A DNA stretch of 64,000 nt from Pseudomonadota bacterium (GTDB lineage Bacteria > Pseudomonadota > Gammaproteobacteria > QQUJ01). The notes below the pieces were generated by a model, which made no database searches, was not told the origin of the DNA, and saw nothing but the letters and a program-made list of their open reading frames with translations. Within the stretch, counting starts at the first letter, position 1; each line of letters begins with the position of its first letter. This document shows, piece after piece, positions 5,229-51,425 of this stretch. The DNA lies in the NCBI GenBank assembly GCA_008501635.1, contig QQUJ01000016.1:62001-126000 (forward strand), in the 5' to 3' direction. Position numbers and translations under genes: made by a program.

Positions 5229-5687
5229 ATGACCGATTTCAAGGCACACGACGAGCACTTCGCCAAGCGGGTTCGCGAAAGCTTTTCCCGCCAGGGCGTG
5301 ATGGGCTACCTGGGTGCCGTTCTGGCAGATGTCGGTGCCGGGCATTGCGAGATTCACCTCCCCTATCACGACGGCCTCAGTCAGCAGCACGGATTCTTCC
5401 ATGGCGGCATTGTCGGGACCATCGCCGACTCGGCCGCGGGCTATGCAGGGTACTCGTTGATGCCCGCCGACTCGAGTGTGTTGACCGTCGAATACAAAAT
5501 GAATCTGTTGGCCCCCGCCGATGGCGAGCTGCTGATCGCGCGCGGTGCCGTGATCAAGGCAGGCCGCAATCTCGTCATTGCCAAAGCCGATGTGGGCGTT
5601 GTCAAGGCGGGTCGCGAGAAACCCTGCGCTACGCTGTTACAGACATTAATGACCGCCCTCAATCGCCCGGATCTCAGCCCGGGCTGA
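5229..5687 (+). CDS. PaaI-family thioesterase (hotdog fold)
   Basis: 152 residues. The PaaI-type signature [19 protein letters not shown] contains the His-Gly-Gly-x-x motif and the acidic residue of the active site helix. The later block [16 protein letters not shown] is the conserved hotdog strand. The family hydrolyses acyl- or aryl-CoA thioesters. It is the first gene of the leucine-catabolism operon, 25 bp before liuA, and is under the TetR-operator promoter. A role in rescuing CoA from stalled branched-chain acyl-CoA intermediates is plausible but is inference. No strong ribosome-binding site precedes the ATG. Confidence 0.88.
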
Positions 5688-5712
5688 CACCACGATCAAT
5701 GCGAGGTCCAGC

Positions 5713-6885
5713 ATGCAAGGAATGAGTTATCCGACCCTCGACTTCCAGCTCTCCGAGACATCGGAGATGATGCGCCAGTCGGTCTACGATTTTGCCCAGA
5801 CCGAGATCGCGCCGCAGGCGGCTGAGATCGACCGCAGCAACGAGTTCCCCAATACTCTGTGGTCGCGGATGGGTGATCTCGGCCTGCTGGGTGTCACCGT
5901 CGAGGAGGACTTTGGCGGCGCCGGCATGACATACCTGGATCACGTCATTGCCATGGAAGAGATCAGCCGCGCCTCGGCTTCCGTAGGGCTCTCCTACGGC
6001 GCCCACTCCAACCTGTGCGTCAATCAGATTCGTCGTAACGGCAACCTCGAGCAAAAACAGAAATACCTGCCCAGACTGATCCGCGGCGAACACATCGGAG
6101 CGCTGGCGATGAGCGAACCCGGGGCAGGTTCCGATGTGGTAAGTATGCGACTGCGCGCCGAGAAAAAGGGTGACCGCTACCTCCTCAATGGCAATAAAAT
6201 GTGGATCACTAATGGCCCCGACGCCGACACGCTGGTGGTCTACGCCAAGACCGATCCCGATCTCAAGCAGCATGGCATAACGGCCTTTATCGTCGAGAAA
6301 GGCTACCCGGGCTTTTCCACAGCCCAGAAGCTGGACAAGCTCGGTATGCGCGGGTCGAACACCGGCGAACTGGTGTTTCAGGATTGCGAAGTCCCCGAAG
6401 AAAATATCCTTGGCGGACTCAACAAAGGCGTAGCGGTCCTGATGAGCGGACTCGATTACGAACGCGCGGTGCTCGCAGGCGGACCCGTCGGCATCATGCA
6501 GGCGTGTATGGATGTGGTGGTGCCCTACGTACACGAGCGCGAGCAGTTCGGCAAACCGATCGGCACTTTTCAACTCATGCAGGGCAAGCTGGCCGATATG
6601 TACACCACACTGAACGCGTGCCGCGCCTATACCTACGCTGTAGCGCGCGCCTGCGACGCGGGCAAGACCAGTCGCAAAGACTGCGCGGGCGCCATCCTCT
6701 ATGCTTCTGAAAAAGCAACCCAAATGGCTCTGGATGCCATCCAATGCCTGGGCGGAAACGGTTACATCAACGAATATTCCACCGGACGCCTGCTGCGCGA
6801 TGCAAAGCTCTACGAAATCGGGGCCGGCACCAGCGAGATCCGCCGCATGCTGATCGGGCGCGAGCTGTTCCAGGAATCGGCCTGA
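5713..6885 (+). CDS. liuA: Isovaleryl-CoA dehydrogenase
   Basis: 390 residues, the normal acyl-CoA dehydrogenase length. The N-terminal helical, middle beta ([23 protein letters not shown]) and C-terminal helical domains are all present. The catalytic base is diagnostic: Glu250 in [13 protein letters not shown] is at the isovaleryl-CoA dehydrogenase position, while the site used by most other family members reads [12 protein letters not shown] with no Glu there. The enzyme oxidises isovaleryl-CoA to 3-methylcrotonyl-CoA with FAD and passes electrons to ETF. Linkage to liuB, liuC, liuD and liuE confirms the assignment. GAGG lies about 7 bp before the ATG. Confidence 0.95.
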
Positions 6886-48343: not shown

Positions 48344-49237
48344 TCATTGCCTGCCCGCGACATCCTGAAGCGCGGCTTTGATCGCATCCGGTGCCTTTGA
48401 GATCTTCATGAAGGTGCCCATCGTCAGATCGGGAAAACTCTGTGCAATGCGGAATTTGCCGTGCAACGCGTAAACCTTTCCACCACTCACCAACATCTCA
48501 TAGGGGAGATGCGGAGTATGCTTCAGAGGCGCGATATCGGTCGTTGCCATAACCGCCTGGTCGGAACCCTCGCCCGCGGACAAAGCCACTCCGAACAAGG
48601 TCTCGTCTTTGCCCGGCAGATCGATGCGATACACCTTCTGAGTGCCGCTTCTTCCTGCTGCCAAGCCGCTTTCCACTGCCTGAACGGCGCTGTCGTAGCC
48701 ATCGTACTCGGCAAGGGCCAACTGATCGGTGAAGTACGGCATGAAGATCATGTAATGGTAGCTTTTGAGATCAAATTCGGGGGCACCGTATTCAGAACCG
48801 AACTCCTGCATCCTGCCCAATGCGCCTGCCATTGACGCGGTAACGCCCGCCAAAGAATCCGCCATCCGGTAAACGATCGCCATGTATTCTGGATTGGTGT
48901 AGGCGATCTGCACGCCCTCATCGGTTCTGGTCACACCCACGCGCAACGCAGCTCCGTACCCGCCGAGTTCGGATCGGGTCGCCGTCTGCTTCAACGCCTC
49001 ATTGGTGACTACCAGCGAATGCGCGCCGGGATAGGGGCTGTATTCCCCCACGATCGTCATACCGCCCTGTTTCAACGCGACGCGTGTCTGCTCGAGGATA
49101 TCGGCGAAGTCGCCAGTCGCTTGTTTTGCCAATACATAAGGCTTGTAGAATCGGGTCTCCGCCTGTGAATTTCCGACCAGAATCAATCCCGTGACGAGAA
49201 CTGCAAGTAGCGAGAAGTAACGTCTGAAGTGGTACAT
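48344..49237 (-). CDS. Secreted protein of unknown function (DUF302-like N-terminal half)
   Basis: 297 residues. A signal peptide (YFSLLAVLVTGLILVGNSQA) ends before ETRFYKP. The next part, residues about 25-130, contains DILEQTRVALKQGGMTIVGE and VGVTRTDEGVQIAYTNPEYM, an arrangement loosely like DUF302 domains, which bind small ligands or haem-like groups. No enzyme motif is visible in the C-terminal half. It is predicted periplasmic. The start at 49237 follows GGATTTGAG and is preferred over an upstream TTG. I do not recognise a named family. Confidence 0.78.
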   Translation of the reverse strand: MYHFRRYFSLLAVLVTGLILVGNSQAETRFYKPYVLAKQATGDFADILEQTRVALKQGGMTIVGEYSPYPGAHSLVVTNEALKQTATRSELGGYGAALRVGVTRTDEGVQIAYTNPEYMAIVYRMADSLAGVTASMAGALGRMQEFGSEYGAPEFDLKSYHYMIFMPYFTDQLALAEYDGYDSAVQAVESGLAAGRSGTQKVYRIDLPGKDETLFGVALSAGEGSDQAVMATTDIAPLKHTPHLPYEMLVSGGKVYALHGKFRIAQSFPDLTMGTFMKISKAPDAIKAALQDVAGRQ

Positions 49238-49563
49238 GCTCAAATCCAATACATGTGACTAAGGCCAGATGGAACTAGTAACACGCAGCCATGGAGCGCA
49301 ACCAATAAGGAGTCTTGATTCCGCCATAGAGAAAGAGTTATGGAACTGCAAAGAGTCTCCAGGGGCTCGTTGATTACCGCTGAGATAATCAACTGTCGAT
49401 TGACGCTTGCCTCCACGTTCTGCATCGATCTCAAGCGAATACGCTTTCGTTCAATCGACATACACTCATCGTTGAAACGCTCGGCCAACCCGCCGATCCT
49501 CTCCGAGGGTGCAAGAATTCTCGCTGGCGCGATCTCCTGACGAGCGAAGGCGATTGCATCAAA
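49238..49563. other. Intergenic region without a supported gene
   Basis: About 325 bp between the secreted protein and the terminator of the Cache-HAMP gene. A minus-strand frame across most of it (49240-49620) contains the sequence ERIGGLAERFNDECMSIERK but lacks a start with a ribosome-binding site and overlaps the terminator. It may be a relic. Nothing else is recognised. Confidence 0.4.
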
Positions 49564-49597
49564 GCGCCGGGTAGTCTCTACGGAGACTACCCGGCGC
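49564..49597 (-). terminator. 15-bp perfect inverted repeat terminating the Cache-HAMP gene
   Basis: GCGCCGGGTAGTCTC and GAGACTACCCGGCGC are perfect 15-bp arms with a 4-base loop, starting 19 bp after the stop codon. On the minus strand it is followed by TTTGAT, a weak T-run. The length is unusual for a simple terminator. Confidence 0.7.
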
Positions 49598-49616: not shown

Positions 49617-50792
49617 TCAACGGTTTGTCTTGCCCTGCTCGGCCCTTCGCGTCCTCAATTGCTTCATTGCAATCTGGAGGCTGACCACTATGCGCTGAAA
49701 AGCCTGTATCAACTTTCCGATTTCATCTTTTCGTTCGGTATCCCCAATCACAATGTCGAAATCACCGAGGCTGATCTTTTCCATTTGCTGAGTCAGTTTT
49801 CGGATTGGATCAACAATACGGTTGGAGAAGAAAACGGAGAAATACACAGCAATCGCGAGCGTGACGACGATACCGACGAGGAAAGTGGTTTGCAGTGAAT
49901 AGAGACTGTGAAAGGCCTCTTTGGCCTCGATTTCCGCAACAAGTATCCAAGGGTATTTCTCATGCTTGAGGTACAGGTCGATCACTTCGACGCCTTCCGC
50001 ATTGGTTCTCAGATCGGAAGAGAATCCCTTCGCCCGCGCTTCGGCGATACCCGGCGTACCCAGCGGCGCCTGCTTATCGATATCCTTATAGACAATCGGC
50101 ACGCCATCCGCCGTTGTCAGGAACACTTTACCGGTATCACCGAGCTTAAAGTTCTCAGTAAGAATTTTGGTTTCATGCGGTATTTGCAACTCAAAACCAA
50201 TAACCGCGCGCACAGTACCATCGGGTTGTTTCACCGGATAAAACAGCATTTGGTGACTGTGATCCGACTCAATCCAACTGGAATAGTCCGAGACACTGGT
50301 CGTACCATTCAATAATGTTTCGGTTACCCAAGCGTTGCGCGAGGTGTCTTCATTAAGATGGGAGGAAGGAGATCCTTTGACTTTCTCACCGTGATTGGGA
50401 CTGACAACAATTTTTCTGGTGCGGTCAATCAAAAAGATATGATGGTACTTTCCCCAATGCGCCTCCTGAAAACTGTAGAGCAGGTTGTCAACCTGCTTTC
50501 TCACTTCCTCGAATCGTTCCGCTTCCACCGAATTCAGACTCCGGTTTGAGCTCGCGATGAACTCCTGCATGACATCGGAGTTCGCCATCGCCTGTCCGAT
50601 GGTCTCTGTGGCATCAATATAGTTTTCCAGCGCGTCCTCTTTTGACTTCACGATCGTCAACAGGTATTCCTGGATCGATTTGGTAAATATATCCGTGGTT
50701 TGAAAATAACTGATTCCTCCCAGCGTTATCAGCGGGATCAAGGCCATCACATGCAACACAATCGATAGTTTCGTTTTAATCGAAGTCATCAT
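49617..50792 (-). CDS. Cache-HAMP membrane receptor lacking an output domain
   Basis: 391 residues. A first membrane helix (about 12-32) leads to a large periplasmic dCache sensor (about 33-300) with HHIFLIDRTRKIVVSPNHG and DTGKVFLTTADGVPIVYKD. A second membrane helix (LVGIVVTLAIAVYFSVFFS) follows, then a HAMP domain (NRIVDPIRKLTQQMEKISL) and a short helix, after which the protein ends. No kinase, GGDEF, EAL or methyl-accepting domain follows. The stop is followed at once by a strong hairpin, so this is the natural end of the gene. It lies 48 bp downstream of a small gene that could supply the missing cytoplasmic partner. The ligand is probably an amino acid or other small molecule, by fold only. 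Confidence 0.88.
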   Translation of the reverse strand: MMTSIKTKLSIVLHVMALIPLITLGGISYFQTTDIFTKSIQEYLLTIVKSKEDALENYIDATETIGQAMANSDVMQEFIASSNRSLNSVEAERFEEVRKQVDNLLYSFQEAHWGKYHHIFLIDRTRKIVVSPNHGEKVKGSPSSHLNEDTSRNAWVTETLLNGTTSVSDYSSWIESDHSHQMLFYPVKQPDGTVRAVIGFELQIPHETKILTENFKLGDTGKVFLTTADGVPIVYKDIDKQAPLGTPGIAEARAKGFSSDLRTNAEGVEVIDLYLKHEKYPWILVAEIEAKEAFHSLYSLQTTFLVGIVVTLAIAVYFSVFFSNRIVDPIRKLTQQMEKISLGDFDIVIGDTERKDEIGKLIQAFQRIVVSLQIAMKQLRTRRAEQGKTNR

Positions 50793-50840
50793 TTCCCCCA
50801 GGCATTTCGCCTTAATTCACAATCTCCATAGAACCGATTT

Positions 50841-51425
50841 TCAGCCACGCCTTATGCGCTCCAACGCCAGATCACGAAAGGTACCGGCATAAGCGCTGTC
50901 CGGGATCTGCATGGCCACGGCGTCGACAAGCTCTTCAAGATTTTCACTGCTTTCGATCGCCTGTTCGATGATCAGATCGGCCATCGGTCCGATGTGTTTT
51001 ACCGCCAGCTCAATCAGCACCTCTCGTACCAGTTCTTCTTTGAAATCTCCGAATGGTGTGCCTTTATCAGCCACCGGCTTGGTAGGAAGAACTGACCCCC
51101 CATCCTGGCGCACCACAGGCGTACCCGCTTCTATACGGTCGGCCAGTTCCTTGGCCGGCATGAGTTCCTTGCGGATTTCTCCCTTTGCCGCGACAAAGCC
51201 AAATCTCAGGGATTGAGATTGAGCGAGGAGTTGTATCGCTTCCCCAACATCTTTTCGCCGGGCGATGGTCTGAGTCAGTCGTCCTTCATAAAACCTCAAC
51301 ACAACCGACCGCTGCGCCTCGGTGACGATGGATAGAACCCCGGATTCACGATCGGCAACAATCTTTCGAATCTGATCGACCAAATGCTGCTTCGATACGA
51401 ACTGTGTAGTCACGCGATCAAGCAT
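50841..51425 (-). CDS. DUF4388-like cytosolic protein with helical C-terminal domain
   Basis: 194 residues. The N-terminal region, about residues 20-80, has GVLSIVTEAQRSVVLRFYEG then DVGEAIQLL, resembling the DUF4388 or PATAN-type fold linked to signalling. A linker (GTPVVRQDGGSVLPTKPVAD) leads to a helical domain, about residues 125-194, with EELVREVLIELAVKHIGPMA and LEELVDAVAMQI, of the type found at the end of bacterial two-component and type IV pilus-related proteins. No catalytic residues are seen. As first gene of the Cache-HAMP operon it is a candidate adaptor or output for the receptor. Confidence 0.75.
   Translation of the reverse strand: MLDRVTTQFVSKQHLVDQIRKIVADRESGVLSIVTEAQRSVVLRFYEGRLTQTIARRKDVGEAIQLLAQSQSLRFGFVAAKGEIRKELMPAKELADRIEAGTPVVRQDGGSVLPTKPVADKGTPFGDFKEELVREVLIELAVKHIGPMADLIIEQAIESSENLEELVDAVAMQIPDSAYAGTFRDLALERIRRG

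Follow-up and report, generated by a model that had tools for sequence, protein, structure and literature searches.

HAMP-terminated receptors encoded beside proteins with a predicted STAC-like four-helix domain in proteobacteria

A stretch of 64,000 nucleotides from a Pseudomonadota bacterium (Gammaproteobacteria; contig QQUJ01000016.1; hereafter the window) carries on its minus strand two neighbouring genes, one for a transmembrane receptor that stops just past its HAMP domain and one for a small cytosolic protein that ends in a helical domain, which we call the GP domain. In proteobacteria, genes for GP-bearing proteins recurrently lie beside genes for receptors that end in this same way, and the charge of the receptor tail is anticorrelated with that of a stretch of the GP domain. 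We read the two proteins as a split transmembrane signalling unit, in which the receptor tail would dock onto the GP domain of a separate protein and thereby switch or localise it, and we give this reading a probability of about 0.7. The best reading of the arrangement is a bacterial, effector-fused variant of the archaeal Af1503/Af1502 pair.

Recurrent pairing of HAMP-terminated receptors and GP genes

In the window receptor, the sensor and HAMP domains both score above the Pfam cut-offs (dCache_1, E 4.4e-15, 56.3 bits, cut-off 45; HAMP, E 1.3e-11, 45.1 bits, cut-off 25), and hydropathy maxima at residues 9-27 and 304-322 are consistent with two membrane helices. The stop falls 18 amino acids (aa) past the HAMP domain. 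Beyond HAMP, Pfam finds no family above cut-off and no MCP signal, HisKA/HATPase or GGDEF domain, and NCBIfam receptor and kinase models touch the HAMP neighbourhood only, at scores far below cut-off. An earlier note, made from the letters of the window, had described a receptor that ends right after HAMP without an output, in a layout unlike that of standard chemoreceptors, kinases or diguanylate cyclases, and both descriptions hold. The receptor combines an extracytoplasmic sensor, membrane helices and HAMP as its sole cytosolic domain, which is an Af1503-like layout. It is also genomically coupled to a small helical protein, whose gene lies 48 bp ahead on the same strand, where it had been placed before.

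The small protein has no meaningful family match in Pfam (best E 0.048, below cut-off) and none in NCBIfam, and the absence of an enzyme domain, as already noted, is borne out by Pfam. Its N-terminal part had also been called DUF4388-like, a label that is weakly supported by the sequences: DUF4388 (PF14332) gives no match up to E 1 in the window protein, five relatives match at E 0.0054 to 0.21 (12.1-17.2 bits against a cut-off of 25), and the other relatives give none. Judging from the alignments, the shared element is the C-terminal helical domain and not the DUF4388-like part. This GP domain, a four-helix domain in the last 65 residues of the small protein, goes unnamed by the models of Pfam and NCBIfam. 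The Pfam scans did not return DUF8082, a label used for C-terminal domains of this sort, and a sequence search of PDB chains with the GP profile gave no match (best E 0.11, a Rab protein). An alignment of 14 copies yields the pattern LAxHVGPxAxxLV...LAxxIPDxxxRxxF, in which the G is invariant (14/14) and the P nearly so.

Because the window genome is the sole representative of its order in the genome collection used, we searched its class, sampled by 369 genomes. With the whole small protein as query, matches in 10 of these genomes were of two sorts, either full-length and beside HAMP-ending receptors or limited to the last 55-90 residues within Ser/Thr kinases, and a class III cyclase with a GP domain adjoins one of these kinases. 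We replaced this mixed search by a profile of the GP domain built from the 14 copies, which found the domain in 34/369 genomes; scans of named genomes returned only loci L053 and L020, both already counted. To check for circularity, a profile of 55 kinase and cyclase copies only (in an alignment itself made with the general GP profile) was run against the 448 window open reading frames (ORFs) of at least 50 aa, and the small protein was the sole match up to E 10, at E 7.7e-10.

The class sample holds 41 GP ORFs, leaving aside L082, where a copy occupies a 62-aa frame at the edge of a contig. The domain sits at the C-terminus of 21 Ser/Thr kinases with a catalytic motif, two kinase-like proteins with an altered motif, six class III cyclases, ten DUF4388-like proteins, one Roadblock-like and one ACT-like protein; these labels come from Pfam for some and from motifs or inspection by eye for the rest, the ACT-like one being a sub-threshold match. 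Most partners elsewhere are kinases or cyclases, and fusion to one of these, the two kinase-like proteins included, accounts for 29/41 ORFs. This count bears on another view of the pair, in which the GP protein acts upstream or structurally (its binding of the HAMP tail would keep the receptor stable, clustered or inhibited) and a different protein provides the output. The window partner would suit such a role, with no enzyme domain and a DUF4388-like part of no known output, and papers of 2022 and 2026, in the portions available, call the role of STAC unknown or unclear, perhaps that of a regulatory linker. We nevertheless consider an upstream or structural role unlikely, since in those 29 loci the domain is fused to what is likely the output enzyme itself.

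All places returned by the GP profile search were read with their flanks, using a HAMP profile built on receptors from the window and eight other loci. Of the 41 GP ORFs, window included, 37 have as a neighbour an ORF on the same strand in which 3-17 aa separate the end of the HAMP match from the stop. The gap is at most 105 bp in 33 of the 37 and amounts to 212 bp at L019 and 164 bp at L063, negative gaps such as -520 reflecting over-called starts; at L020 and L053, the kinase lies about 500 bp from the receptor, on whose other side is a cyclase. Two further GP genes, at contig starts (L066, L073), have a HAMP end directly before them, with tails of 4 and 14 aa. Overall, 39/41 GP genes lie beside a receptor that ends just after HAMP, so that conservation of the neighbourhood, which the earlier note had proposed as a check, comes out in favour of the pair. 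The single DUF3365-HAMP receptor between a GP kinase and a GP class III cyclase at L020 and L053 suggests one sensor with two outputs.

The same association appears beyond the class sample. Matches occur in 6/398 genomes of a phylum sample, namely the window's own, a false positive and four GP kinases, and all of these kinases (4/4) are paired with a receptor; the false positive (L104, E 5e-4) was dropped as a GP protein, being transglycosylase-like by eye. On plasmids, eight records match a DUF3365-HAMP receptor over at least 80%. The proteobacterial genes (three Caballeronia, Paraburkholderia aromaticivorans, Skermanella rosea and Rhodovulum sp. P5) are HAMP-terminated in 6/6 cases, with tails of 4-18 aa, and lie beside a kinase with two GP copies; the cyanobacterial plasmid receptor of Kovacikia continues for 223 aa past HAMP.

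We also examined the pairing from the receptor side, with a HAMP profile built on seven of the receptors. The window genome has nine HAMP matches, eight of which were measured (the ninth, L089, in a 1226-aa frame, lies outside this set); six are internal and two C-terminal, these being the window receptor and one receptor on another contig. The latter had been missed by the GP search and has a 162-aa GP protein encoded 75 bp away, a blind confirmation of the pairing. Across 56 class genomes, 129 HAMP matches were obtained at E 1e-6, and the 64 that were read comprise 30 returned loci, all others in frames up to 620 aa and a few more, the remaining 65 all lying in longer frames. The tail was measurable in 59 of the 64 proteins, and the other five ran off the stretch. 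At most 20 aa follow HAMP in 12/59, and 11 of these 12 have a GP neighbour; at the internal-HAMP places, a GP gene was found in 0/45 within the stretch read. Three of the 11 paired receptors supplied the profile and all but one were already known from the GP search, so the informative part is the blind case together with the lack of an output-less counterexample. A parallel view comes from Pfam PF11845 (Tll0287-like), with matches in 63/143 genomes: among the places read (30 returned loci, all those in frames of 279-400 aa and a few others, with most longer frames outside this set), ten receptors are HAMP-terminated and 10/10 have a GP neighbour, all ten known from the GP search.

Two of these loci have further features. 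The twelfth short-tailed protein (L168, 1516-3213, G020) brings its own output: an N-terminal Ser/Thr kinase is followed by a membrane sensor and by HAMP at the C-terminus, and the stretch read contains no GP gene. In the second pair of the window genome (L105, G000:C26; 287-1393 and 1469-1957, minus strand), the receptor has an N-terminal CxxC/CxxC zinc-ribbon-like stretch and a HAMP end, and the GP protein has a winged-helix-like N-terminus by eye, for which NCBIfam gives no match.

A receptor without an output domain, as in the window, could be a truncated relic of a chemoreceptor or kinase. The relatives argue strongly against such decay: 43 GP-neighboured receptors share their stopping point and have similar helical tails, related receptors stop 3-17 aa past the HAMP match and carry no fused output, and GP genes keep away from the internal-HAMP places read (0/45, as above). 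We give a relic next to no chance, and a truncated chemoreceptor in particular is rejected on the ground of relatives that end alike. The earlier note had instead taken a perfect 15-bp hairpin behind the stop as proof that the end is genuine. The hairpin itself is real: its arms (49564-49578 and 49583-49597) are 15 nt long and 100% complementary around a 4-nt loop, it starts 19 nt past the receptor stop, its RNA fold has a z-score of -5.35, far better than shuffles, and its 28-nt core pattern, allowing up to three mismatches, occurs once in the window. It is absent, however, from the list of a terminator scan that needs at least five T in the eight bases after the stem, so the hairpin alone is no proof of a gene end, for which the shared stopping place of related receptors is the better proof.

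Predicted fold of the GP domain and its relation to STAC

AlphaFold2 predicts four helices for the window GP domain (pLDDT about 90). For a tandem GP fragment of the L177 cyclase, the model has four helices in the first copy and a merged first helix in the second. When both GP models were compared with 350,542 PDB chains, Af1502 ranked first for each. Af1502 is a STAC protein from Archaeoglobus fulgidus whose gene is coupled to that of Af1503, a HAMP-only receptor of a family without a recognizable effector, as described in the accessible part of the literature (PDB 5A1Q; PMC4834066). Af1503 also provided the prototype HAMP structure.

According to the same partial source, HAMP is the only cytosolic part of Af1503, as in the window receptor, and Af1502 resembles the GP protein as the small product of a coupled gene that forms four helices, with an LGPx(x)A motif lying between the first two (PMC4834066). 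The window protein has the corresponding sequence IGPMA at residues 145-149, between the predicted helices 130-145 and 149-159, the first residue of the GP motif being I or V more often than L, and its predicted model is a four-helix bundle of two hairpins, as in STAC. The archaeal pair differs in having a stand-alone partner of 60-90 aa without an effector and a transport-enriched genomic environment (PMC4834066, accessible part), whereas the GP pairs are proteobacterial, their partner bears enzyme or adaptor domains, and their sequence match to SLC5/STAC regions exceeds chance only when the hairpins are swapped. In a direct comparison with nine SLC5/STAC regions, the GP profile reaches an hhalign score of 15.3, which is at chance level (null maximum 15.4 of 40); with its two hairpins swapped, it reaches 24.8 (61 columns), where 100 column-shuffled nulls go no higher than 15.0. 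The swap had been prompted by the direct comparison, and the nine regions were assigned to STAC from their position between SLC5 and kinase and not from a database annotation. The GP domain may, on this comparison, be a circularly permuted relative of STAC. Since it sits C-terminally on kinases, cyclases, DUF4388-like and other proteins and is neither a stand-alone protein of 60-90 aa nor part of SLC5/two-component proteins, we call it STAC-like.

Two other known arrangements are related in part. In the SLC5/STAC histidine kinases (CbrA, CrbS, RpuS), STAC is also a four-helix bundle between a membrane input and an output, but there, in the available text of PMC13022988 and PMC9100948, it is a covalent linker between SLC5 transporter and histidine kinase, in a layout with no HAMP-terminated receptor. 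The window pair also recalls the energy taxis pair CetA/CetB of Campylobacter, which, as far as the accounts at hand go, is likewise bipartite, a separate protein working with a HAMP-bearing one. In CetA/CetB, the separate protein is reportedly the sensor and the HAMP protein bears the signalling domain, whereas in the window pair the separate protein would bear the output.

Charge relation and proposed signalling in trans

The receptor tails are alike except in charge, being basic with DUF4388-type partners and mostly near-neutral or acidic with kinases and cyclases. We compared the net charge of the tail with that of the 14 residues past the GP motif. Correlation was r -0.78 with a fixed 13-residue tail and -0.85 with a tail defined as the residues past the last HAMP S-L (45 pairs in both cases), and again -0.85 over 43 receptors when the tail was taken to start where the HAMP match ends. 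Left out of the charge analyses were L021, whose GP frame runs off its contig, L055, L066, L072 and L073, as well as the 132-aa ORF of L056, L213 and L214. With S-L tails, permutation within classes gives p 0.00025 in 20,000, and the kinases alone give r -0.65 (28 pairs; Spearman -0.41); cyclases alone give r -0.84 (5 pairs, p 0.08). When relatives are collapsed into 36 clusters, r stays at -0.85, and with 10 clusters it is -0.82 (a grouping into 3 is too small to use); a partial r of -0.62 is left after removal of class and whole-protein charge. Along the proteins, the signal peaks in the tail (-0.66, -0.71) and in the stretch past the motif (-0.83 to -0.89), with a second signal near the last GP helix (-0.61 to -0.71). 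In the kinase pairs L064 and L071, the tail and the GP stretch both have the reverse sign. These mirrored charges suggest that the receptor tail docks onto the GP helix.

A number of observations weigh against a docked signalling unit or against its charge-based part. Concerning the fold, the scores of the Af1502 match are weak alone (Foldseek E 0.48 and 1.3; VIA Z 6.0 and 5.2, a range where a common helical arrangement can suffice), and the alignments behind the two GP models share rows. In the charge test, three tail definitions were used, and the S-L rule starts some tails too early (L019, L070, L071, L081, L105). Much of the correlation lies between classes: the class of other partners gives r -0.48 (12 pairs, p 0.11, Spearman -0.03), and the kinases alone, with the 13-residue tail, give a Spearman value of -0.26 that is not significant (p 0.18). 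The charge of the whole GP protein also correlates (r -0.50), the receptor residues right before the tail show the opposite trend (+0.64), and tail and partner helix have the same sign in 5/43 receptors (L018, L063, L068, L070, L076). The pairing has its exceptions as well. L055 is a true one, with HAMP-terminated frames of 299 aa and 97 aa elsewhere in its genome; L072, at a contig end, is unpaired, with no HAMP match in its genome at E 1e-6; a 132-aa HAMP-terminated ORF in L056 is another; and so is L140, one of two proteins with 28-aa tails and no GP neighbour, the other of which (L150) looks frameshifted. On a Rippkaea orientalis plasmid, a DUF3365-HAMP receptor with a short tail (L215, 4974-5894) has no GP neighbour. 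The charge test, moreover, was post hoc, devised with the sequences already seen and with relatedness only roughly handled.

The post hoc charge test also leaves room for a view in which the two genes are merely co-regulated neighbours of one pathway, without physical contact, the operon being kept as both are needed; adjacency alone is no sign of contact. We find this even less probable than an upstream role of the GP protein. Mere co-regulation sits poorly with receptor families (dCache, haem-type DUF3365 and others) and effectors that vary while the HAMP tail and the GP domain stay constant, and with mirrored charges, an effect that is strongest for the tail paired with the stretch past the GP motif.

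Under the preferred reading of a split signalling unit, a periplasmic ligand bound by the dCache domain would change the state of the HAMP dimer, as is established for HAMP domains in general. The change would reach the exposed, short helical tail past HAMP, and the tail would bind the GP domain of the partner protein, in part by charge attraction: the window pair combines a basic tail with an acidic helix, and most kinase and cyclase pairs combine a near-neutral or acidic tail with a basic helix. Docking would switch or localise the partner. In other lineages, with the GP domain on a Ser/Thr kinase or a class III cyclase, the receptor would control the enzyme in trans, and GP copies in tandem could each take one half of the HAMP dimer. 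The window partner would be a DUF4388-like adaptor, probably relaying to a third protein. A signal passed by contact to a separate adaptor is what the earlier note had suggested; the recurrent pairing supports a receptor with a separate partner and the post hoc charge mirror fits, and from these we infer the contact itself, the direction of the signal and the output of the window adaptor.

A broader claim, to which we would give even odds, is that HAMP-terminated receptors are wired in trans to many effectors through a general plug and socket coded by charge, made up of the HAMP tail and the portable STAC-like four-helix domain. These would be Ser/Thr kinases, class III cyclases, adaptors and possibly a DNA-binding protein; the pairs would be a bacterial counterpart of Af1503/Af1502, and the function of the STAC-like domain would be to read the HAMP state. 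HAMP-only receptors with STAC partners are already known in archaea. The receptor-GP pair is undescribed in the titles and abstract openings listed by our searches of the open-access literature. As far as these searches go, the new elements are the bacterial counterpart, the recognisable effectors fused to the putative docking domain, the mirrored charges, and a connection with haem-type sensors and with kinases associated with the type VI secretion system (T6SS). An Af1503-type layout in bacteria, with recognisable outputs such as a kinase or a cyclase, would make the question of HAMP-only signalling testable, and the same pairing across proteobacteria with different partners suggests a shared way of handing sensor signals to separate proteins.

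Haem-type sensors, secretion clusters and the window locus

A CxxCH motif is present in 29/43 GP-neighboured receptors, all of which have a kinase or cyclase partner, as 31 of the 43 do, and the CxxCH receptors tested are members of the sCache_heme (DUF3365/Tll0287) family; the window receptor, with its dCache domain, has no such motif. A HAMP-bearing Pseudomonas azotoformans protein of the Tll0287-like family binds nitric oxide (NO), as described in the part of PMC12889525 available, and by analogy NO or redox is a plausible input of the haem-type, GP-paired receptors. The same part of that paper names no partner protein for sCache_heme receptors, and the pairing described here would predict partners for HAMP-bearing haem-type sensors of the NO-binding kind.

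Five of the six proteobacterial plasmid pairs lie in or beside type VI secretion clusters. A DUF3365-HAMP receptor with a GP kinase is a possible sensory input to T6SS phosphorylation, and in environmental bacteria the kinase of several such clusters would be predicted to receive sensory input of this kind. The literature on T6SS kinases (PpkA, TssW, RtkS), in the portions consulted, gives PpkA a periplasmic domain and leaves the receptor-GP pair unmentioned. At L179, L180, L182, L213 and L214, the pair is near tagF, tssM, tssB, tssC, hcp or tssH, and the T6SS loci of L179 and L182 also have a PP2C phosphatase gene.

Two other contexts were considered and rejected. Neither window protein has a PADLOC match that would indicate an anti-phage system, the kinase matches there being to generic kinase models, and a viral module found no support in two pattern scans of viral contigs, a method sensitive to close relatives only.

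Features of the receptor-partner locus, in positions of the window
Feature	Position	Strand	Basis
dCache-HAMP receptor gene without output domain, 391 aa	49617..50792	minus	ORF and Pfam
Periplasmic dCache_1 sensor domain, residues 38-286	49935..50681	minus	Pfam PF02743 above cut-off
HAMP domain, residues 321-373	49674..49832	minus	Pfam PF00672 above cut-off
C-terminal tail past the last HAMP S-L (QIAMKQLRTRRAEQGKTNR, net charge +5), proposed docking peptide	49620..49676	minus	
Perfect 15-bp hairpin 3' of the receptor gene, possible transcript end or stabiliser	49564..49597	minus	
194-aa cytosolic partner gene (DUF4388-like N-terminal part, linker, C-terminal GP domain)	50841..51425	minus	ORF, GP profile match
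GP domain, residues 130-193, predicted helices 130-145, 149-159, 163-171 and 177-193	50847..51038	minus	AlphaFold2, alignment
Acidic stretch past the GP motif, residues 148-161 (MADLIIEQAIESSE, net charge -4), proposed docking helix	50943..50984	minus	Charge anticorrelation
N-terminal part of partner, residues 1-100, DUF4388-like by alignment to relatives	51126..51425	minus	Low-confidence model, pLDDT 35-66

The genes near the pair encode a YegS-type lipid kinase, a GFA-type protein and a glyoxalase-like protein, along with unassigned ORFs, and give no functional hint. Downstream of the receptor, a minus-strand gene (48344-49249) encodes a 301-aa protein with a likely signal peptide by eye and no Pfam match up to E 1. 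At L016, a gene for a solute-binding-type protein (5261-6022, by eye) directly precedes that of a short sensor-HAMP receptor and possibly encodes its ligand-binding partner.

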